Source: a virus. Taken from it: a stretch of DNA of 25,374 nucleotides. Where the stretch lies: positions 1-25,374 of IMG/VR virus record IMGVR_UViG_3300042860_001014; one strand, 5' to 3'. Position 1 is the first letter of the stretch. Every line of letters starts with the position of its first letter. The translations under genes were made by a program, and so were the position numbers. This document shows positions 1,397-25,294 of this stretch, in pieces. A model generated the notes under the pieces. It was not told the DNA's origin and did not search any database. It saw only the letters and a program-made list of their open reading frames with translations.

Positions 1397-1630
1397 ATGA
1401 GTGGCATCCTGAGTAAGCCTTCCATGCCCGCACCGCAGCCGGTGCCGGTAAACCCCGTCAACGATCCGGCCGCAGAAAAGTCACGGCTGGACGCCGAGCG
1501 GGCGGCATTGGCCGAGCGCAAAGGTGCTGGCCGTGCTGGCACCGTCGCCGCCGGTGGCGAACTGGCATCAACCATGCAAGCCGAACGCGGGCTGATGCGT
1601 AAGCGCGCGTCTTCGGAGATGCTCGGTTGA
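1397..1630 (+). CDS. Small hypothetical protein between terL and portal
   Basis: A 77-residue protein with a good ribosome site (AGGAGA, 1385-1390). The N-terminus is rich in Pro, Ala and Val; the middle (about residues 27-45) is rich in Ala, Glu, Arg and Lys and probably helical; the C-terminus is basic. I recognise no domain. Small ORFs at this place are common in podoviruses whose order is terL, small ORF, portal. Its stop codon overlaps the portal start as TTGA, so the two are probably translated together. A role in packaging or portal assembly is only a positional guess. Confidence 0.7.
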   Translation: MSGILSKPSMPAPQPVPVNPVNDPAAEKSRLDAERAALAERKGAGRAGTVAAGGELASTMQAERGLMRKRASSEMLG

Positions 1631-3270
1631 GCGAGAAGACGCAGTATCACATTCAGAAGCTGGGGCAACTCAGGTCTGACCGGGCCAACTTCGATACGCA
1701 ATGGGAAGAAGCGGCGTCGCTGATCATCCCGGCGCACCGCAACTCTTTTCAGGGCCGCGGGTCTGACAACGCCTTCGGCGCGCAGGGCCAGAAGAAAACC
1801 GAACTGCAGTACGACTCGTCGGTGGGTGTTGCTGCGCAACGCTTCTCCAGCGTGATTGAATCACTGGCAACCCCGCAAGCATCCGTGTGGCACCGGCTGG
1901 TGCCGGCGGACAAGATGCTGAAACGCAACCGCGCCGTGCGCCTGTTCTTTGATGACCTGAACGAGATTCTGTTCAGTCATCGTTATCGCCCCATGGCCAA
2001 CTTCGTGGGCAACAGCCAGCAAACCTACATGGGGCTGGGCACCTACGGCAACGGCGCCTTGTATGTGGACAAGCCGGAAGACGGCACCCGTGGCTTACGC
2101 TATCGCAACTTCCATTTGGGTGAAGTCTACTTTGTCGAGAACCACGCTGGCGTCGTAGACACGTTTTACCGTTCGTGGTTTATGACCGCGCGCCAGATTT
2201 CGCAGCAGTTCAATGCCTCCGGCGACAAGGTGCCGGAAGCCGTGACCGAAGCGTTGAAGAACCCGCAGCAGGCCGAGAAGAAGTTTGAAGTCCTGCACTG
2301 CGTCTACCCGCGGCAAGACTTTGATCCGCGCAGGGTTGACCCGAAGGGGATGCGTTACGCTTCGCTCTACATTTTTGCGCAGAACCAAGAGGAAATTCGG
2401 GAGTCAGGCTACAACAGCTTCCCGCTGCCGGTGGCCCGCTACACCCAGGTATCCGGTGAGATTTACGGTCGCGGCCCGGCGCAGTGGGTGCTGCCCGCCA
2501 TCAAGGTGCTGAACGAGCAAAAGAAGACCGTGCTGAAGCAAGGCCACCGTGTTGTGGATCCGGTCCTGCTGGCGCACGACGACGGCAACCTTGGTTCCTT
2601 TAGCCTGAAGCCCGGCGCGCTGAACGCCGGCGGTCTGAACAAAGATGGCAAACGCATGATCGACGTGCTGCCGACCGGCAACATTGCGGTTGGCGACAAG
2701 ATGATGCAGATGGAGAAGGATGTCATCAATGACGCCTTCCTGATTACGCTGTTCCAGATTCTGATCGACACGCCGCAGATGACGGCGACCGAAGTGCTGG
2801 AGCGGGCGCGCGAGAAGGGGATGCTAATCGCCCCGACCGCTGGCCGTCTGCAAGCCGAGTTCCTTGGCCGCATGATCGAACGCGAACTTGATCTCCTGTT
2901 CCAGCAAGGGCTGGTGCCGGAGATGCCGTCGATCCTGCGCAACACCGAGGCAGCAGAATACTTCATTGAGTACGACAGCCCGATGTCGCGGATGCAGCGG
3001 TCGGAGAAAGCCGCTGGCTTCATGCGGGCGCTGGACGTGGCGGCCAACTACGCCAAGAACACCGGCGACCCGTCGCCTCTTGACTTTTTCAATTTTGATA
3101 CCGCCATGCCGGAGATTCTGGACATCCAGGGTGCGCCGACCGCATGGACTCGTTCAATGCAGGACGTAGAAGCCATGCGTGCCGGTCGCGCGCAACAAGC
3201 CCAGACACAACAGATGATTGAAGCAGCCCCCGCCGTCGCCGGCCTGATGAAGTCAGCACCCGCTGCTTGA
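1627..3270 (+). CDS. Portal (head-to-tail connecting) protein
   Basis: A 547-residue protein forming the dodecameric ring through which DNA enters and leaves the head, and on which the T7-like tail assembles. The length and sequence character (an early QWEEAASLIIPAHR segment, a central YGRGPAQWVLPAIKVLN segment, and MTATEVLERAREK later) match the head-to-tail connecting protein family of podoviruses (T7 gp8 type). The start is TTG at 1627, overlapping the previous stop as TTGA, with GGAG at 1615-1618 eight bases upstream; no in-frame ATG lies near the N-terminus of the conserved part. It follows terL and precedes the scaffold and capsid genes as expected. Its own stop overlaps the TTG of the next gene in the same TTGA form. 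Confidence 0.93.
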   Translation: MSEKTQYHIQKLGQLRSDRANFDTQWEEAASLIIPAHRNSFQGRGSDNAFGAQGQKKTELQYDSSVGVAAQRFSSVIESLATPQASVWHRLVPADKMLKRNRAVRLFFDDLNEILFSHRYRPMANFVGNSQQTYMGLGTYGNGALYVDKPEDGTRGLRYRNFHLGEVYFVENHAGVVDTFYRSWFMTARQISQQFNASGDKVPEAVTEALKNPQQAEKKFEVLHCVYPRQDFDPRRVDPKGMRYASLYIFAQNQEEIRESGYNSFPLPVARYTQVSGEIYGRGPAQWVLPAIKVLNEQKKTVLKQGHRVVDPVLLAHDDGNLGSFSLKPGALNAGGLNKDGKRMIDVLPTGNIAVGDKMMQMEKDVINDAFLITLFQILIDTPQMTATEVLERAREKGMLIAPTAGRLQAEFLGRMIERELDLLFQQGLVPEMPSILRNTEAAEYFIEYDSPMSRMQRSEKAAGFMRALDVAANYAKNTGDPSPLDFFNFDTAMPEILDIQGAPTAWTRSMQDVEAMRAGRAQQAQTQQMIEAAPAVAGLMKSAPAA

Positions 3271-3806
3271 TAAAACTTAACCTTGGATGCGGCAGCAAGA
3301 AGCTGCCCGGCTTCGTCAACGTCGATTCCCAGCCGATGGAAGACCCGGACGTGGTTGTCCGGCTGGACGTTGATCGGTGGCCGTGGGATGACAACTCCGT
3401 CGAAGCCGTGGAGGCGTCGCACGTCATTGAACACATCGCTCCCGTCGAGCCGTTCTTCCACTTCATGCGGGAACTGCACCGTGTCTGCGCCCACGGCGCC
3501 CGCGTCCATGTCACCTTGCCGCACCCGAGCCACGATATTTTTTTGCAAGACCCGACCCACCAGCACGCCATTCTGCCCGGCACGTTGGCGATGTTCTCCA
3601 AGAAATATTCCGACATGCTGGCCAAACACGGCCACCAGTTGACACCGTTCTGGAAATACTTTAATATAGACTTTGATATGGGGCCGGTGCGGTATACGTT
3701 TGACCCGGCTGTAGACGGCAGCGACCCGGACTTGGAATACAAAGCCCGGCATTGCCGCAACATCATCAAGGAGTGGGAAACAACTATGGTCGTATGCAAG
3801 TCCTGA
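3267..3806 (+). CDS. Class I SAM-dependent methyltransferase
   Basis: A 179-residue Rossmann-type methyltransferase. LNLGCG at residues 4-9 is the SAM-binding motif I, Asp20 in NVD is the usual acidic residue binding the SAM ribose, and HVIEHI (52-57) followed by a FMRELHRVC segment matches the later Methyltransf_11-type motifs. The HPSHDIFLQDPTHQHAI segment probably lies near the substrate site. The start must be TTG at 3267 (TTGA overlap with the portal stop), since the next in-frame ATG is residue 24 and would remove the SAM motif; no good Shine-Dalgarno site is visible, suggesting coupling to the portal gene. The target (sugar, protein, DNA or small molecule) cannot be read from sequence. 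The glycosyltransferase just downstream suggests a carbohydrate substrate, but that is inference. Confidence 0.85.
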   Translation: MIKLNLGCGSKKLPGFVNVDSQPMEDPDVVVRLDVDRWPWDDNSVEAVEASHVIEHIAPVEPFFHFMRELHRVCAHGARVHVTLPHPSHDIFLQDPTHQHAILPGTLAMFSKKYSDMLAKHGHQLTPFWKYFNIDFDMGPVRYTFDPAVDGSDPDLEYKARHCRNIIKEWETTMVVCKS

Positions 3807-4081
3807 CCGATTGGTGGGAGCAGGTACGCCGGGTGTTGATGCGCCGGCGCCACGCTTACAACACCACGTTCCGTTCGCCGTTGGGCGAAGAAGTGTTGCG
3901 CGACCTGGCGCGGTTTTGCCGGGCGCATGAGTCCACGTTCCACGCAGACGACCGCGCGCACGCCATGGCAGAAGGCCGCCGGGAAGTGTGGTTGAGAGTG
4001 CAAAACCATTTAAATTTGTCGCCCGATGAACTGTGGCAGCTTTACTCTGGACGACCGAGCGGAGATACGAATGTATCGTGA
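3794..4081 (+). CDS. Bbp19-like phage head-region protein
   Basis: A 95-residue protein resembling the Bbp19 family named after Bordetella phage BPP-1: an aromatic/basic N-terminus (WWEQVRRVLMRRRHAY), then F-SPLGEEVLRDLARFCRAHEST, then an EGRREVWLRVQNHL segment. It should be mostly helical. Family members are found near capsid genes; the molecular function is unknown to me. I chose the ATG at 3794, which overlaps the methyltransferase by 13 bases; a longer reading from a TTG at 3752 lacks family-like sequence. Its 3' end overlaps the glycosyltransferase start by 11 bases, so it is embedded in the same coupled transcript. Confidence 0.75.
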   Translation: MQVLTDWWEQVRRVLMRRRHAYNTTFRSPLGEEVLRDLARFCRAHESTFHADDRAHAMAEGRREVWLRVQNHLNLSPDELWQLYSGRPSGDTNVS

Positions 4082-5063
4082 CGGCAAGATGATTGGTGAT
4101 GGACTGCCGATGAACTTCGTGTTGAACCACGGCGCATTGGGTGACGTGATCTGTTCGCTGCCGGCAGTGATTGCCGGGCGCGTAGCCGACCCATTTTCCG
4201 TTATCCGGGTGTGGGGACCGTCGTGGCAGCACGAATTGCTGGAGCACCTGCTGAAGCCCTACGGCGAGTTTGAGATCCGCAACTTTGAGGACTTTCCCAA
4301 GACCAAGGCCGAACGGGAAGAACGCAACCCCGGCCATGTGGCATTGAACCAAATGCCGTTCAACACGCACACCCGCAACCGTGTCCACATGGTTGACTAC
4401 GCTTTTGGTTGTCTGCTGGACTCGCGCCCGGAGAACATGCTGGAACGCAGCTACCCTACGCAGGCGCCCTTGGGCAAGCGTCGGTTCGATGAACCTTACG
4501 TGGTGTTCCCGGTAGGGGCTACATCCGACAACAAGCTATTCCGCGCCAGCGTCATGGCACCGGTAATTGAGTGGGTCAACGAGCAAGGCTACGTGCCGGT
4601 GCTGGTCGGCACCAAGACCAGCCACACGCAAGCCGAAGCTGGCGGCGTGCTGACGCCAATCACAATCATTGACGAAGTAGACAAGCTGCCGCCTTCCCTG
4701 CGCGTAGAGTGCATTGATCTGCGGGAGAAAACGACGCTGCTGGAACTACGCGACTTGCTGGGCTACGCGGAAGCGGTGGTTGGCGTTGACGGTGGCACGC
4801 TGCACTTGGCCGGGACGACCGACACCAACATCATCTACGCCATGGGGGCGACGATACCGCGCCACCGGTTCATCGCCCGCAACGGCGACCCAAGCTACAA
4901 GATACGTTACGTCGGCCCGCGTGACTTGGAGTGTACCGGTTGCCAATCGAAGTGGCGCATGAGCAGACATGATTTCCGGAATTGCCCGTACGGCGATTCC
5001 AAGTGCATGGAGCAGATACACTGTGACGATTTCATCAATGGACTGAAGGAGCTTGGACTATGA
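4071..5063 (+). CDS. GT9 / heptosyltransferase-like glycosyltransferase
   Basis: A 330-residue protein with the layout of glycosyltransferase family 9 (ADP-heptose:LPS heptosyltransferases), which transfer sugars from nucleotide-sugar donors. The N-terminal domain opens with NHGALGDVICSLP (GALGD at 21-25), matching the family's G-x-LGD motif; the C-terminal domain has the nucleotide-sugar-site pattern VGVDGGTLHLAG (Asp240 to His245) followed by an IIYAMGAT strand. Four cysteines (288, 291, 305, 312) form a CxxC...C...C cluster like the C-terminal cysteines of many GT9 proteins. I prefer ATG 4071 (GGAG six bases upstream) to the in-frame ATG at 4026. It overlaps the Bbp19-like gene before it and the scaffold gene after it (ATGA). 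A sugar transferase inside a head operon is odd; virion, host-surface or DNA glycosylation are all possible. Confidence 0.82.
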   Translation: MYRDGKMIGDGLPMNFVLNHGALGDVICSLPAVIAGRVADPFSVIRVWGPSWQHELLEHLLKPYGEFEIRNFEDFPKTKAEREERNPGHVALNQMPFNTHTRNRVHMVDYAFGCLLDSRPENMLERSYPTQAPLGKRRFDEPYVVFPVGATSDNKLFRASVMAPVIEWVNEQGYVPVLVGTKTSHTQAEAGGVLTPITIIDEVDKLPPSLRVECIDLREKTTLLELRDLLGYAEAVVGVDGGTLHLAGTTDTNIIYAMGATIPRHRFIARNGDPSYKIRYVGPRDLECTGCQSKWRMSRHDFRNCPYGDSKCMEQIHCDDFINGLKELGL

Positions 5064-5905
5064 CCGACACCGCCCCCGCATCTACCCCTGCACCCGCCCC
5101 CGCATCTACCCCTGCGCCTGATGCTGCTGCCCCGTGGCATGGTCTGACCGACCCGGACGCCGCCGCTTACATCTCCAACAAAGGCTGGACCGCGCCGGCG
5201 GACATCGTGAAGTCTTACCAAGGAGTCGAGAAACTGATTGGACGTGACCCGTCAACCCTGATTACCATGCCGCGCATGGACGACCCGGAAGGTGTCAAGT
5301 CCGTGTTTCAGAAGCTGGGCCTGCCCGAGTCGCCGGACAAATATGACATGACTGTTGGCCTGCCGAAAGGCGCCAAGGCGGACGAGGGCTTTGCCAAGAC
5401 CATGCAGAGTATCCTGCACAAGTCAAACGTGACGGACAGCCAGGCCAAGACGCTGGTGGCCGAGTGGAACACCATGCAGACGGCCGCGCGCGAACAGGCA
5501 GCCAAGGACTACGACCTGAACGTGGCGGCCGACAAGCAATCTCTGCTGGACGAATGGCGTGGCGGGCATGACCGGATGATGAACCGGGCCAAGACCGCCG
5601 CCACCACGCTGGGCTTCACGCCGGAATTAATTGACTCCATTGAAAAGAGTCTGGGCTACGCCGGCACCTACAAACTGCTGGCCGAGATGGGCGGCAAGCT
5701 GGGCGAAGACACGCTGGTCACGCCGAACAAGAACACCGACTTCGGCACCACCCTGACCCCGGACGAGGCCAAGAACCAACTGGCGACCGCGCGCAGCGAC
5801 CCGAACCATATCGCCGCGCTGAAGGACAAGAGCCACCCCGGTCACAAGATGGCGCAGGAAAAAGAGAACAAACTTTTTTCCATTATGTACCCGGGCAGTA
5901 AGTGA
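5060..5905 (+). CDS. Probable capsid scaffolding protein
   Basis: A 281-residue, highly charged, probably helical protein directly upstream of the capsid gene, the usual place for the scaffold that directs prohead assembly and is later removed. The N-terminus is a low-complexity Pro/Ala/Thr/Ser stretch made by a DNA repeat, followed by WHGLTDPDAAAYISNKGW and KSYQGVEKLIG, which resemble the N-terminal region of podoviral scaffold/capsid-assembly proteins. Residues from about 95 to 220 are rich in Lys, Glu, Ala and Asp, and the tail is basic (HKMAQEKENK). ATG 5060 overlaps the glycosyltransferase stop as ATGA, with GGAG at 5048-5051. The call rests mainly on position and composition. Confidence 0.75.
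   Translation: MTDTAPASTPAPAPASTPAPDAAAPWHGLTDPDAAAYISNKGWTAPADIVKSYQGVEKLIGRDPSTLITMPRMDDPEGVKSVFQKLGLPESPDKYDMTVGLPKGAKADEGFAKTMQSILHKSNVTDSQAKTLVAEWNTMQTAAREQAAKDYDLNVAADKQSLLDEWRGGHDRMMNRAKTAATTLGFTPELIDSIEKSLGYAGTYKLLAEMGGKLGEDTLVTPNKNTDFGTTLTPDEAKNQLATARSDPNHIAALKDKSHPGHKMAQEKENKLFSIMYPGSK
5071..5115 (+). repeat. Tandem direct repeat in scaffold N-terminus
   Basis: A 21-base sequence at 5071-5091 recurs exactly at 5095-5115 (period 24, in frame). It encodes the repeated PASTPAPA segment near the scaffold N-terminus. It looks like a recent slippage duplication in a disordered linker. Confidence 0.85.
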
Positions 5906-6239: not shown

Positions 6240-7133
6240 ATGCCGGATAACATCACAGTTGCCTCAGTACAGCAGTACAAGGCCAACGTAGAGCTTCTGC
6301 TGCAACAAACCGATTCCCGCCTTGCCGGTGCCGTCACCGTTGGCAGTTACGTTGGCAAAGCCGCCAGCACTGTCGAACAGTTTGGTTCCGCTACGGCTGT
6401 CCAGCGTACCAGCCGTCACGCTGACACCCCGCTGCTCGATCTCTCGCAAGACAAGCGTTGGGTTTTCCCGACCGACTACGAATGGGCCTCGCTGGTTGAC
6501 AAGCAAGACCAACTGCGCGCCATCGTTGAACTGACCAGCCCGTATGCCATGGCCGGCGCCGCTTCAATGCAGCGTGTCAAGGATGACATCATCCTGGCCG
6601 CGATCTTCGGCACCAACTACACCGGCGAGAACGGTACGACCTCTGAGTCGTTCGGCACGCTGGGTTCCGGCACCTACGACGTGGGCGTCAACACGGGCGG
6701 CACCGCTTCGGCGCTGAACGTGGCCAAGCTGCAGTCGGCCATTCAGAAGCTGATGCTGGCGAACAAGGGCGAACTGAACGAGTCCGTCTACGGCGCCATC
6801 TCCAGCTACGAGCACGATGCGCTGCTGAAGGAAATGCAAGTCGTCAACAAGGACTACGGTAACAGCGCAGTTCTGGTGGACGGCAAAGTCAAGCGGTTCA
6901 TGGGTGTGGACTTCATCATCACTGAGCGCCTGACCATTACCTCCGGCAACCGCCTGATCCCGCTGTGGCTCAAGTCAGGTATGCATCTGGGCATGTGGGA
7001 CGAAGTTCGGGCTGAGATTGGCCCGCGCGCAGACAAGGGTTACGCAACCCAGGTCTACCTCGCCATGACCCTCGGCGCAACCCGCACGCAACTGGGCAAG
7101 CAAATCCGCATCCAGTGCGACGACCAGATCTAA
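6240..7133 (+). CDS. Major capsid protein
   Basis: A 297-residue protein building the icosahedral shell. The sequence matches the podoviral Phage_capsid_2-type family: N-terminal NITVASVQQYKANVELLLQQ, the RTSRHADTPL segment, WVFPTDYEWASLVDKQDQLR (about residues 78-97), and a conserved aromatic region KSGMHLGMWDEVRAEIGPRADKGY before the C-terminus. An HK97-like fold is expected from the family. ATG 6240 has GGAG six bases upstream. It sits directly after the scaffold and the leader region and before a probable decoration protein, the usual order. The clear coding signature and its own candidate promoter and terminator suit a protein needed in hundreds of copies. Confidence 0.93.
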   Translation: MPDNITVASVQQYKANVELLLQQTDSRLAGAVTVGSYVGKAASTVEQFGSATAVQRTSRHADTPLLDLSQDKRWVFPTDYEWASLVDKQDQLRAIVELTSPYAMAGAASMQRVKDDIILAAIFGTNYTGENGTTSESFGTLGSGTYDVGVNTGGTASALNVAKLQSAIQKLMLANKGELNESVYGAISSYEHDALLKEMQVVNKDYGNSAVLVDGKVKRFMGVDFIITERLTITSGNRLIPLWLKSGMHLGMWDEVRAEIGPRADKGYATQVYLAMTLGATRTQLGKQIRIQCDDQI

Positions 7134-7145
7134 GGAGAAGCTGAC

Positions 7146-7649
7146 ATGGCACTCGTATCAAGCTCGCAAGTTGTTACCGACCAGTCGGCAAGCCCGGCGG
7201 TCAAGACCAACCAGCTGGAAAAGGGCGGCATCCACCGCACGGCGCAAGGCTATCTGGCTGCTGCGTCGTTCACCGGCGGCACCGCTGGTCAGTGGTACAC
7301 GTTCGTTCGCCTTCCGGCGCGCGCGCGTATCACCGGCATCTTCCTGACCGGCGCCACCACGACCTCGGGCGCAGTCAAATGCGGCCTGTATCGCACCGAC
7401 GGCATCGCCATTGATGACGACGTGTTCGCCACGCTGTATGTGATGTCCGCTGAAAAAGATCGCACGCAGATCGACGTGACGCAGACCGCCCTGGAACGCG
7501 CAAGCGACCTGGCAACCGCCTATGTGACGGCCGTCGGCACCGCCGGCGCCACGGCTGATGTTGAGTTTGACATCGCCTTGACGGTTGTGACGGCACTGGG
7601 TGCAGGTATTGCGCACCTGATGGAAGTGGACTACGTTCTGCCGGAATAA
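7146..7649 (+). CDS. Probable capsid decoration/cement protein
   Basis: A 167-residue protein, rich in Ala, Thr, Gly and Val, with alternating hydrophobic segments that suggest a beta-sandwich (QWYTFVRLPARARITGIFLTG, VKCGLYRTDG, VEFDIALTVVTAL). No catalytic motif is seen. It follows the capsid gene by 12 bases with a strong ribosome site (AAGGAG, 7132-7137), and the pair is closed by an intrinsic terminator, so it is probably made in similar high amounts. That position is where cement/decoration proteins such as BPP-1 Bbp16 are encoded, but I do not see enough similarity to claim that family. It could be another head-stabilising protein. Confidence 0.65.
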   Translation: MALVSSSQVVTDQSASPAVKTNQLEKGGIHRTAQGYLAAASFTGGTAGQWYTFVRLPARARITGIFLTGATTTSGAVKCGLYRTDGIAIDDDVFATLYVMSAEKDRTQIDVTQTALERASDLATAYVTAVGTAGATADVEFDIALTVVTALGAGIAHLMEVDYVLPE

Positions 7650-7659
7650 CGGCGACTGA

Positions 7660-7692
7660 CCTCGGGGGCTTCGGCCCTCGGGGTTCCTTTTT
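7660..7692 (+). terminator. Rho-independent terminator after capsid genes
   Basis: A 10-bp stem (7660-7669 with 7674-7683, including two G-U pairs) is capped by a C(UUCG)G tetraloop and followed by TTCCTTTTT (7684-7692). This is a classical strong intrinsic terminator. It lies between the probable decoration protein and the next ORF, in the 55-base gap. It probably attenuates or stops the capsid transcript, so downstream genes need read-through or another promoter. Confidence 0.9.
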
Positions 7693-7704
7693 CGGGAGAA
7701 GCAC

Positions 7705-7938
7705 ATGGCAGTAGCCTCTGTTCAAGTCACCGGCACCAACGGCCCGCACGTCAACGGCAACGATGTTACGTTTGACGTTACCGGCGGCACGCTGGACAAC
7801 GCCAGTGTTTGCCAATTCAACTGGGATGACACGGTATTTGTCGGCATGGAAGGCAAGCAGCGTTTGCTGGCCCAGCTGAAAATCGTTTACGATCGTATTT
7901 CGACCGCAAAACTGTGGCCCGTAACGGCTGCGTCGTAA
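7705..7938 (+). CDS. Small hypothetical virion-region protein
   Basis: A 77-residue protein with GGGAGA before its ATG. The N-terminal half (VASVQVTGTNGPHVNGNDVTFDVTGG) looks like beta strands; the C-terminal half (GKQRLLAQLKIVYDRIST) may be helical. No known domain is recognised. It is the first gene after the terminator and precedes another probable head protein by nine bases. A minor head or head-completion role is a positional guess. Confidence 0.7.
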   Translation: MAVASVQVTGTNGPHVNGNDVTFDVTGGTLDNASVCQFNWDDTVFVGMEGKQRLLAQLKIVYDRISTAKLWPVTAAS

Positions 7939-7947
7939 GGAGCCGTC

Positions 7948-8523
7948 ATGCAAGTGATGCGTAAGCGTAGTTCGATCCTTGTGCCGTGCGTTGCTGGCGC
8001 ATACGGTGCCGGTGATGAAATAAGCAGCAGCCAAACTGCGGGGTCTGTTGTCCGCGCCACGTTTGACATGAGTGGCTTCACCCGCGGACGCATTTACGCA
8101 GCAGCCATAGACCTGACGGCCGCTTCCAGTGATGTAGTCACCACTGTCTGCGACTTAGAACTTTTGCTGTTCAGGACGCCGGACGCGCCGGCAGCTGTTG
8201 GTGATAACGTCACCCATCCGTTTGAGGCAAGCGTTCGCGCCAAAGCGGTTGCGGCGTTTCGCTTTGATGACACTGGCTGGACTGGGCCGCTCGGCACCGT
8301 TGCGGCAGGCACGTCACAGTTCCAAGCGGTCATGGCGCATCTGGTTCAGCCGCTGGCGACCAACGTGCTCCAAGCCCCGTGGTCCAACGGCTTCCACTTC
8401 AACTTTGAAGGGCAGACGCTGGCGCAACGCGAGTTCACAGTGGTGCTTCGCGCACTTGCTGCCTGGACGCCGCTGGCAGTCAACAACACTATTGGGATCA
8501 CGTTAGATCTGGAAGCTGAGTAG
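7948..8523 (+). CDS. Probable beta-rich virion protein
   Basis: A 191-residue protein with TAAGGAG just before the ATG. The pattern AYGAGDEI, then a hydrophobic strand series, then CDLELLLFRTPDAPAAVGDN resembles small phage structural proteins found beside capsid genes that begin with a similar AYxxGD segment and carry an LLFF/LLLFR strand. The C-terminal half contains LAQREFTVVLRALAAWTPLA and ends in a TLDLEAE strand, suggesting a jelly-roll or beta-sandwich. No enzymatic motif. It is likely a decoration, vertex or head-tail protein, but the exact role is not visible. It precedes the T7 gp11-like gene by five bases. Confidence 0.65.
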   Translation: MQVMRKRSSILVPCVAGAYGAGDEISSSQTAGSVVRATFDMSGFTRGRIYAAAIDLTAASSDVVTTVCDLELLLFRTPDAPAAVGDNVTHPFEASVRAKAVAAFRFDDTGWTGPLGTVAAGTSQFQAVMAHLVQPLATNVLQAPWSNGFHFNFEGQTLAQREFTVVLRALAAWTPLAVNNTIGITLDLEAE

Positions 8524-22116: not shown

Positions 22117-24585
22117 ATGACTGTCAGTTCAGTAACTAACCGCAAGACCTTCGCTGGCAACGGTGTTACGACCAGCTTCGCCACGTCGCCAGTGGTCTTC
22201 TTTGACACCAGTGACCTTGTGCTCACGGCGGTCACGGACTCAACCGGCGCGTCCGAAGCCTTGGTCGAAAACACGGACTACACGGTATCCGGCGGCGCAG
22301 GAGCCACCGGAACGGTTAGTTTGGCTGGCGGCTCCAGCCCCTACGGCGCACCGGCTGCGGGGATTACGCTGGTTATTCGCCGCGTGCTGCCCCTGACACA
22401 AGACGACGACTTCCTGAACAACGACATCAACGACGCGGAAGTGCTGGAAGACCGGCTCGACCGGTTGACCATGATCGACCAACAGATTGATGAAGAAATA
22501 GGTCGGTCACTGAAAGTGCCGTCATCTGAGGGAGAGCAAACTGACATCACTGTTACAGGCAAAGCAGGTTATTACCTCCGCCGCAATGTGGCAGGCAACG
22601 CCTTTGAGTTAGCAGTGGGTGACGCCAACACCAGCACGTTTACACAATCAGGAACTGGCGCTGTTGAACGCAGCGTTACCGCAAAACTTGGCGAGAGTGT
22701 CAGCGTCAAAGACTTTGGTGCTGTCGGTGATGGTGTCACTGATGATACTGCCGCAATCCAGAGAACGATCAGCGCGGTAGAAGCCTCAACCGCGACAAAG
22801 GGTTTGATCTACTTTCCACCGGGCACTTATCTTGTGTCCTCCGAGATACGTATTAGCAATGATCGTATAAATCTTCGCGGCGATGGGCCTCAATCCAGCA
22901 CCATTGATTTTCGGCCATCAGGGGAGGCAACATGCGTTCGCTTCCAAAAAGCCACGGCGACTCAGTTGGTGCAGTCCTCTATAAAGGGTATCGGCTTTAT
23001 TAGCGGCGGCGGCAACACGCAAACCAAAACCGCGCTCAATGTTGTTGATGTGAACCTCTTTGTATGCGAGGACTTCGCGGTTAATTCTTGGGCGGGGTCT
23101 AGCATCGGGATAAAGACCAATGGACGAGATGCGTCATATTTCAGCCGCATCGCAATCAACTGCCTGCGGCCTCTGCTGATTTCTACGAATCCTAATTACG
23201 CTCCGATTGACATAGATCACTTTGAATTTAACGATGTTTACCTAATTACGACCGCCAAGGCCGTCGAAATAGAAAGCGGCGTCGATTTGTCGAACGTGAA
23301 GTTTTCCGGTACTCAAGCATGGGTAGGAGGAACGCACGGTTTGTATTGGGTCAGCACAGCGGCGACTGGTATTTCCTACCCTCTTTCTATAGAAAATTTA
23401 CGCACCGAACAAGGCAACGCAGGGTACTGGCCTATCTACATTGACCTATCAGCAGCGCAACTTCTGCGATCTTTTGCTTTGTCGGATTCTTACCTGGGTA
23501 ACGAGAACGGAATTTATCTCAGGAACGTCAGCAACATTTCACTTAGGAATATCAGCTCCGGTGGCGGGGCAGGAAAAACTGCTCTTGACATTACCGCACA
23601 AGCGCGTTCGTTGTTGGTGTGTGAGAACGTGCAGATTCAAGACTTGGCCACGGTTACGTTGACGACTTTTACGCGACTGTTTGAGTCGATGCCAACGTCC
23701 ACAAACTCCCCGCTTGGGGAGTACGCGGTCTATTGTTACAACGGCAACTCGCCGCTGATGCGACACGCGCTTGTTGTAAGCGCCGATCTGCCAGCACCAC
23801 TAACCGGGAGAAGCGGTGGCCTTATTTTAGAGGACGCTGGACGAGGACACATCGAGTTAGTTGCCTACGGTAGCAATGAACGCCACCGCATCAGCCGAGC
23901 GATCACGAAGCGCGTAGAGCATTTTGACGACTTCCTTGGCGATTTTCTGGCCGACGAGTGGGGTTCGCAAATAGGCAGTGACCCGCAAGTTGTGGCTCCT
24001 GCTGTTGTGATTGCGACTCACGGAACCATGCGAATGACTACCGGGGACGACGCGGCCGGGACGATGGCGACGAACGGAGTGCAACTTCATTCTCAACTTA
24101 CATGGCGTCCCGCGCAAGGCGGCTTCGCTTGCGAGTTTCGACTGCAAATTAGCGCCATTACGAACGTCGCCGTGTTCGTCGGGATGACGGACCAGATCGC
24201 TGCTTTGGAATTCCCCATCGAGTCTGCGGCGTCTGCGGACACGATCAATACCAACGCGTCTAATGCCTTCGGGGTCATGTTTGACACGTCGATGTCTACG
24301 GATAACTGGTGGGCTGTGGGGGTCGCCACGGATGTTGATGCGGTCCAGCAGAACATGGGTGTAGCGCCTGCTGCAGCAACTTACGAGACGTGGCGAATTG
24401 AAGTAGATGACGGCACCGGCGCCGCAACCTTTTACAGAAACGGCGTTCTTGTTGGAGTTACTGTTGCTGGGGCTGTTACACCAAACACGCCGATGACTCC
24501 GGTTGTTGCAGCGATATCGCGTTCGACCGCCACAAGGAACGTGACCGTGGATTATGTATACGTTCACCAGAACAGGCTTACGTAA
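22117..24585 (+). CDS. Tailspike / tail fibre with beta-helix domain
   Basis: An 822-residue receptor-binding protein. Residues 1 to about 150 resemble the T7 gp17 N-terminal anchor (NRKTFAGNGVTTSFATSPVVFF, then DDDFLNNDINDAEVLEDRLDRLTMIDQQIDEEI), which attaches to the gp11/gp12 tail. From about 195, VSVKDFGAVGDGVTDDTAAIQ and LIYFPPGTYLVSS are the classical start of a pectate-lyase-type beta-helix, which continues to about 580. From about 604 a new domain (DDFLGDFLADEWG...) with strands such as YETWRIEVDDGTGAATFYRNG looks like a lectin-like beta-sandwich. Such spikes usually bind and often cleave capsule, LPS or exopolysaccharide; catalytic residues cannot be assigned. From about 22800 the codon usage looks different from the neighbours, suggesting exchange of the receptor-binding part. 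Confidence 0.88.
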   Translation: MTVSSVTNRKTFAGNGVTTSFATSPVVFFDTSDLVLTAVTDSTGASEALVENTDYTVSGGAGATGTVSLAGGSSPYGAPAAGITLVIRRVLPLTQDDDFLNNDINDAEVLEDRLDRLTMIDQQIDEEIGRSLKVPSSEGEQTDITVTGKAGYYLRRNVAGNAFELAVGDANTSTFTQSGTGAVERSVTAKLGESVSVKDFGAVGDGVTDDTAAIQRTISAVEASTATKGLIYFPPGTYLVSSEIRISNDRINLRGDGPQSSTIDFRPSGEATCVRFQKATATQLVQSSIKGIGFISGGGNTQTKTALNVVDVNLFVCEDFAVNSWAGSSIGIKTNGRDASYFSRIAINCLRPLLISTNPNYAPIDIDHFEFNDVYLITTAKAVEIESGVDLSNVKFSGTQAWVGGTHGLYWVSTAATGISYPLSIENLRTEQGNAGYWPIYIDLSAAQLLRSFALSDSYLGNENGIYLRNVSNISLRNISSGGGAGKTALDITAQARSLLVCENVQIQDLATVTLTTFTRLFESMPTSTNSPLGEYAVYCYNGNSPLMRHALVVSADLPAPLTGRSGGLILEDAGRGHIELVAYGSNERHRISRAITKRVEHFDDFLGDFLADEWGSQIGSDPQVVAPAVVIATHGTMRMTTGDDAAGTMATNGVQLHSQLTWRPAQGGFACEFRLQISAITNVAVFVGMTDQIAALEFPIESAASADTINTNASNAFGVMFDTSMSTDNWWAVGVATDVDAVQQNMGVAPAAATYETWRIEVDDGTGAATFYRNGVLVGVTVAGAVTPNTPMTPVVAAISRSTATRNVTVDYVYVHQNRLT

Positions 24586-24770: not shown

Positions 24771-24956
24771 ATGGTGCAGCAAACGGATCAAGTTAAGCAC
24801 CTAGCCGACGCAGCGGCTTATGGTACGGTATTCGCTGCGTGGCTCGGGGTGTTCTCTACCGCGCTGACCATCATCGCCACCATTGCCGCTATTGTCTGGA
24901 CGTGCATTAGGATATACGAAACGCAGACTGTGCAGGACTGGCTGCGCAAAAAATGA
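24771..24956 (+). CDS. Small membrane protein, holin candidate
   Basis: A 61-residue protein with a short charged N-terminus, one long or two short membrane segments between about residues 14 and 47 (AAAYGTVFAAWLGVFS / ALTIIATIAAIVWTCI) and a charged tail (RIYETQTVQDWLRKK). Size, topology and the IVWTxIRIYETxTVQ ending fit small podoviral holin-like proteins that open the inner membrane for lysis. ATG 24771 is chosen because AAGGGG (24758-24763) lies seven bases upstream; the ATG at 24753 has no ribosome site. Its stop overlaps the next start as ATGA. Sequence alone does not prove holin activity. Confidence 0.65.
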   Translation: MVQQTDQVKHLADAAAYGTVFAAWLGVFSTALTIIATIAAIVWTCIRIYETQTVQDWLRKK

Positions 24957-25294
24957 ACTTTGACGAGAGTGACCTGCGCGCGGGTTACTGCTTCCTCAAA
25001 AAGATTGCGTTCAGCAGTGACCGCCGCCTGCCCTCGGTCAACAAGATGGTGTTCGTGGCCAAGCCGCTCAAAGCCCATGGCTACCATGGCAAGGCTGGCG
25101 ACAACCACTGTATCTGGGTAGACACCACCGACACAAAATCACTGGACATGCTGCTCCGCATCCTAGCGCATGAAATGCTGCACGCGGCTCTCGGTCACGA
25201 CCAGGTGCCAAACAAGTACGCGCACGACACCGACTTCAAGGAAGCCGCCCGTGCCATTGAGATTGAAATGGGCTGGTCAAAGGGGAGCGTATGA
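24953..25294 (+). CDS. SprT-like HExxH putative metallopeptidase
   Basis: A 113-residue protein with HEMLH at 73-77, a zinc-binding gluzincin motif, in the context LRILAHEMLHAALGH and followed by HDTDF (His91) 14 residues later, at the place of the third zinc ligand in SprT-type proteins. The preceding strand CIWVDTT is typical of minigluzincin folds. No signal peptide is visible. It is encoded between a holin-like gene and a membrane-anchored gene, so a peptidoglycan or protein-cleaving role in lysis is possible, but SprT-like proteins elsewhere act on DNA-protein complexes. The start ATGA overlaps the previous gene. Confidence 0.72.
   Translation: MNFDESDLRAGYCFLKKIAFSSDRRLPSVNKMVFVAKPLKAHGYHGKAGDNHCIWVDTTDTKSLDMLLRILAHEMLHAALGHDQVPNKYAHDTDFKEAARAIEIEMGWSKGSV

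Follow-up and report, generated by a model that had tools for sequence, protein, structure and literature searches.

Most glycosyltransferases of family 9 (GT9) with a known function act on lipopolysaccharide (LPS). The autotransporter O-heptosyltransferases (BAHT, TIGR04414) TibC and Aah are protein-modifying, and TibC needs an N-terminal beta-barrel for its protein substrate. Among phages, the glycosylated particles described in the literature that we searched are those of mycobacteriophages, whose glycosyltransferases (Che8 gp110, Corndog gp38) modify capsid and tail-tube proteins (PMC12363180); in Maravista, a relative of Che8, the glycosyltransferases are encoded close to the genome's 3' end and not in the head operon (PMC11256854). 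These enzymes are phage-encoded, like the GT9 studied here, but they belong to Mycobacterium phages and are likened to it by description. The HTVC010P-like podophages, which are Pelagibacter phages, share homologous portal, scaffold and capsid genes and the same gene order with our locus, but have neither a GT9 nor the methyltransferase (MT) described below, the scaffold gene following directly after Bbp19. Predicted viral structures already include GT9/RfaF/TibC-like proteins of uncultured phages, so phage GT9s are in themselves not new; a search of the open-access literature found no report of a phage GT9 or heptosyltransferase in a head operon. What is new here is a GT9 that is fixed in a clade within the head operon, together with its exchangeable methyltransferase.

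The DNA analyzed (the window) is a stretch of 25,374 nt from the IMG/VR virus record IMGVR_UViG_3300042860_001014 and corresponds to the late part of a podophage genome. A terminase gene (28-1323), its start truncated by the contig edge, is followed on the plus strand by genes for the portal or head-tail connector (1627..3270; Head-tail_con, E 8.6e-95; phrog_332), a class I SAM methyltransferase of 179 aa with a TTG start (MT, 3267..3806; PF08241, E 1.6e-4; phrog_6636, E 3.1e-14), a Bbp19-like head-region protein (ORF 3752-4081; PF25181, Phage_Bbp19, E 1.2e-17), the GT9 glycosyltransferase (ORF 4026-5063, likely 4071..5063; PF01075, Glyco_transf_9, E 1.6e-11), a scaffold-like protein (5060..5905; phrog_3742, E 4.5e-31, whose function is not annotated) and an HTVC010P-like major capsid protein (6240..7133; Phage_capsid_2, PF19821, E 2e-67), which is 40.5% identical to the HTVC010P capsid. 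Its place ahead of the capsid gene suggests the name scaffold for 5060..5905. Three small genes that are variable among relatives and may encode head decoration follow on the same strand (7146-7649, 7705-7938 and 7948-8523), and further downstream lie a tail protein with a pectate-lyase-like domain (22117-24585, E 9.8e-23), pointing to a host that probably has a surface polysaccharide, and an SprT-like gene (24953-25294, E 6.3e-6).

The ORFs and the Pfam and PHROG matches confirm what had been read from the sequence alone, namely that both enzymes are sited between portal and scaffold with the Bbp19-like gene separating them, and that short stop/start overlaps join them to the structural genes. 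By homologue alignment the Bbp19-like protein probably starts at ATG 3794, and homologues of the GT9 start at ATG 4071, which is preceded by GGAG, so its length is taken as 330 aa rather than 345. Given these starts, the successive overlaps are 4 nt (portal/MT, TTGA, 3267-3270), 13 nt (MT/Bbp19), 11 nt (Bbp19/GT9) and 4 nt (GT9/scaffold, ATGA, 5060-5063). The motifs named in the same reading are likewise all present: LNLGCG in MT, and GALGD, DGGTLHL and a four-Cys tail in the GT9.

The GT9 scores 44.4 bits against PF01075, above the gathering cut-off of 22. Its motif residues are D25 (in GALGD), T151, K155, D240 and H245, with cysteines at 288, 291, 305 and 312; in an alignment of 40 GT9 sequences all of these are invariant except K155, which is conserved in more than 90%. 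The AlphaFold2 model (pLDDT 91.5, pTM 0.91) has a GT-B fold with the catalytic Asp in GxGD and D-x-G-x-x-H at the sugar site. WaaC and WaaF have the family, the fold and the GxGD, Lys and D-x-G-x-x-H positions in common with it, the GD, the DNK-lysine and D-G-G-x-x-H of the phage enzyme aligning with GD, DDK and D-T-G-x-x-H of WaaC. They differ from it in that sequence similarity is weak and that the window GT9 is unlinked to LPS genes; the four-Cys tail is absent from E. coli K-12 WaaC/F/Q/U. Structure prediction, proposed earlier for comparison with WaaC/WaaF and class I methyltransferases, gave confident folds for both enzymes and placed the GT9 closest to TibC: TibC chains take the first 21 places among the Foldseek matches in the PDB (best E 2.8e-15, TMq 0.69), followed by WaaF (1psw, E 4.5e-13), 3tov and WaaC (E 5e-10). 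All equivalog profiles score below their cut-offs, both for heptosyltransferases I and II (TIGR02193, 34.3 vs. 185.3 bits; TIGR02195, 24.7 vs. 134.6 bits) and, by far, for BAHT/TibC (TIGR04414, 22.6 vs. 200 bits).

The likeness to TibC extends to the catalytic Asp, a Thr-x3-Lys element with the same spacing (Thr-226/Lys-230 in TibC, T151/K155 here; PMC4358343) and four cysteines arranged as a long-looped knuckle (CX2C-X13-C-X6-C in the GT9, CX2C-X15-C-X11-C in TibC by the positions in PMC4358343). In contrast to TibC, the phage enzyme has no N-terminal beta-barrel, carries its catalytic Asp at position 25 instead of 110, has an apparent His at the place of Trp-305 in a motif alignment, and is encoded in a phage head operon with no autotransporter. 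Membership of the TibC group on the strength of the four-Cys tail was considered and rejected, since 16 of the 19 acidobacterial GT9s that have the sugar-site motif also have a CxxC..C..C tail; it is a widespread GT9 knuckle and therefore neither identifies the acceptor nor marks protein substrates. Such tails resemble the TibC iron finger in most of the acidobacterial GT9s examined (L191-L229), although the TibC paper terms the motif unique.

MT carries the motifs LNLGCG (motif I) and HPSHDIFLQDPTH, scores 22.7 bits against Methyltransf_11 (PF08241; curated cut-off 21.2) and matches PHROG 6636, annotated 'methyltransferase'. Its AlphaFold2 model (pLDDT 94.4) has a Rossmann-like fold, for which Foldseek returns generic class I methyltransferases (3cc8, 3l8d and 3dli, the last sharing a DPTH motif with MT). 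Between the window and near relatives dN/dS is 0.05-0.13 for the GT9 and 0.04-0.18 for MT, the same range as for portal, capsid and scaffold; both enzymes are intact and under purifying selection. At 10 of the 17 distinct MT junctions compared, portal stop and MT start share the tetranucleotide NTGA (N being any base), which is TTGA in the window and ATGA, GTGA or CTGA in relatives. Start codons of MT are mainly non-AUG (window 3267-3270; L034:4974, L037:5208, L073:1307, L091:238), with apparent CTG among them. Translational coupling combined with a mostly non-AUG start suggests that MT expression is low and late, as would be expected of an enzyme made alongside structural proteins. A seemingly degenerate MT in L073/L074 proved to have an intact motif I, its CTG start having been overlooked by the ORF caller.

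To relate the two genes to phage descent, GT9 loci were gathered from viral contigs (41, later 64); a survey seeded with the capsid, together with the reference phages HTVC010P, MW202898, BUCT708 and 1.182.O, supplied GT9-negative relatives. All covered positive loci have the GT9 after Bbp19 and ahead of scaffold, a few of them having a Bbp19 too divergent for scoring or an extra gene intervening, and its place is unchanged despite endonuclease insertions nearby. In a portal tree with 92 rows, a branch with support of 100 sets apart all 41 GT9-positive rows, and GT9 requires one change. As most of the positive loci had originally been found through their GT9, we added a portal-only search, in which all four new covered clade members (L241, L248, L250 and L251) were positive and the relatives lacking GT9 had portals of 59% identity or less. 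The GT9 is thus fixed as far as the clade has been sampled, and marks one clade of HTVC010P-like podophages with a single gain on the portal tree and loss never seen. Neither enzyme occurs in 63 relatives with a covered Bbp19-scaffold stretch, which bears out the earlier view that they are dispensable for head assembly; the latter evidently needs no GT9.

Sought among isolate phages and prophages, the GT9 of the window has no match in 50,697 phage records. In a genome collection its sole match belongs to an uncultured acidobacterial MAG, on a contig that has these phage head genes as well, and in a plasmid collection there are weak matches to other GT9s and nothing closer. The capsids of L091 and L092 are about 80% identical to that of the window, but their GT9s just 41-42%, so this gene is either fast-diverging or exchanged.

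MT behaves differently from the GT9. A survey of co-occurrence, suggested by the sequence-only reading, found it in 25 of 56 GT9-positive loci and never in the 63 negative relatives; within the clade, no locus covered at both sites had MT alone. The early-branching members L078, L082 and L088-L090 carry MT, and about seven changes are needed within the clade on the portal tree, which reads as an old gene repeatedly lost, about seven times. A strict GT-MT pair is rejected on this count: both enzymes do lie among the head genes, but the GT9 is clade-fixed and MT an accessory. The relatives with one of the two genes do not have degraded active sites, that of the GT9 being intact where MT has been lost. 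MT has moved once, to directly downstream of GT9 in L090, and no MT was found at other places in the MT-negative records, which are fragments. An FkbM-family methyltransferase (TIGR01444, E 1.9e-23) stands directly before GT9 in L070, where it has apparently replaced MT; some FkbM enzymes O-methylate glycosides. The nested distribution is consistent with a methylase whose substrate is the GT9 product, although the restriction of MT to GT9-positive loci may partly reflect descent, as the positive and negative sets are separate clades.

We propose, with chances that we regard as about even, that the GT9 glycosylates a virion protein late in infection using a host-supplied nucleotide sugar, and that the product is optionally O-methylated. 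The GT9 would be an active cytosolic GT-B enzyme, produced late alongside the head proteins. Its donor would be ADP-heptose or a comparable activated (nucleotide) sugar drawn from the host, since genes for the synthesis of such a sugar were not found in the phage: two near-complete relatives of about 44 kb have no nucleotide-sugar, second glycosyltransferase or base-hypermodification family among their Pfam matches. The acceptor, modified before or during assembly, would most likely be a capsid or head-decoration protein, the capsid (6240..7133) being the candidate in the window and the products of the small post-capsid genes (7146..8523) alternative candidates. MT, where present, would cap the GT9-added sugar by O-methylation, which would make MT dependent on GT9 and GT9 independent of MT, and the benefit may lie in an altered particle surface. 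More specifically, and only tentatively, capsid glycosylation by GT9 with host ADP-heptose or a like sugar may be a fixed part of head morphogenesis in this clade, the methyl cap being exchangeable and coming and going from lineage to lineage.

Virion proteins, LPS and DNA had all been offered as acceptors. The first is the most likely, in view of the position in the head operon, the TibC fold match, the lack of an LPS or nucleotide-sugar partner in the Pfam matches of the two relatives of about 44 kb, and the mycobacteriophage precedent; against it count the missing TibC-type beta-barrel, the apparent His for Trp-305 and the fact that the place in the operon gives a timing and names no target. 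The main rival, possible if somewhat doubtful, is modification by both enzymes of the LPS or another envelope glycan of the infected cell, such as addition of a core or O-chain sugar and its capping with methyl, which would allow progeny to avoid binding to debris and superinfection. The best-known GT9 members are LPS heptosyltransferases, the NCBIfam matches are to heptosyltransferase I/II profiles, albeit below cut-off, the tail protein has a pectate-lyase-like domain, and the O-antigens of some bacteria are capped by terminal methylation. Yet expression with the head genes comes late and leaves little time for surface remodelling, the two relatives of about 44 kb show neither a Gtr-type partner nor any other LPS gene in their Pfam inventory, and the protein-modifying TibC is a better fold match than WaaC/WaaF, by a modest margin.

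It is unlikely that MT acts independently of the sugar, methylating a protein or small molecule and having just the late operon in common with the GT9. Its frequent absence and a class I fold that leaves the substrate undefined would suit this explanation, but not its absence from all GT9-negative relatives, nor the FkbM methyltransferase adjoining GT9 in L070. Glycosylation and methylation of phage DNA is very improbable. DNA glucosyltransferases are known from some phages; GT9, however, is not known as a family of DNA glycosyltransferases. A DNA acceptor is further disfavoured because the two near-complete relatives (the genome in the window being incomplete) encode no hydroxymethylase, thymidylate-synthase homologue or other base-hypermodification family, and do encode separate Dam and MT-A70 DNA methylases. 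If glycosylation of a virion protein is correct, a GT9 acquired once and kept in the head operon of a diverse uncultured clade, with its optional methylase, would bring virion glycosylation to HTVC010P-like podophages. The two enzymes would then make up a simple system of protein O-glycosylation, and the GT9-negative relatives would be natural controls for testing the role of a phage sugar coat.

Several other features of the relatives were observed. Small free-standing endonuclease-like genes occupy varied head-operon junctions (L015:4796-5242, L010:5262-5744, L033:5572-6000, L034:6759-7121, L035:1937-2434, L007:5510-6070 and L069:898-1317); family search identifies that of L015 as HNH and that of L010 as endonuclease VII, the rest being judged by eye. 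The genes after the capsid differ even between nearly identical phages, a 191-aa product in the window (7948-8523) corresponding to products of 138 and 612 aa in L002 (5628-7886), and this swapped module, which has no Pfam match, is possibly a head decoration. One relative of 44.4 kb encodes, on the minus strand, an OmpA-like outer-membrane beta-barrel (L107:19439-19999, E 7e-27) and a tyrosine integrase (L108:238-1206, E 7.8e-17). In a podophage from a spring (L053, MW202524), the structural genes are preceded by genes annotated as glycosyltransferases and by two for methyltransferases.
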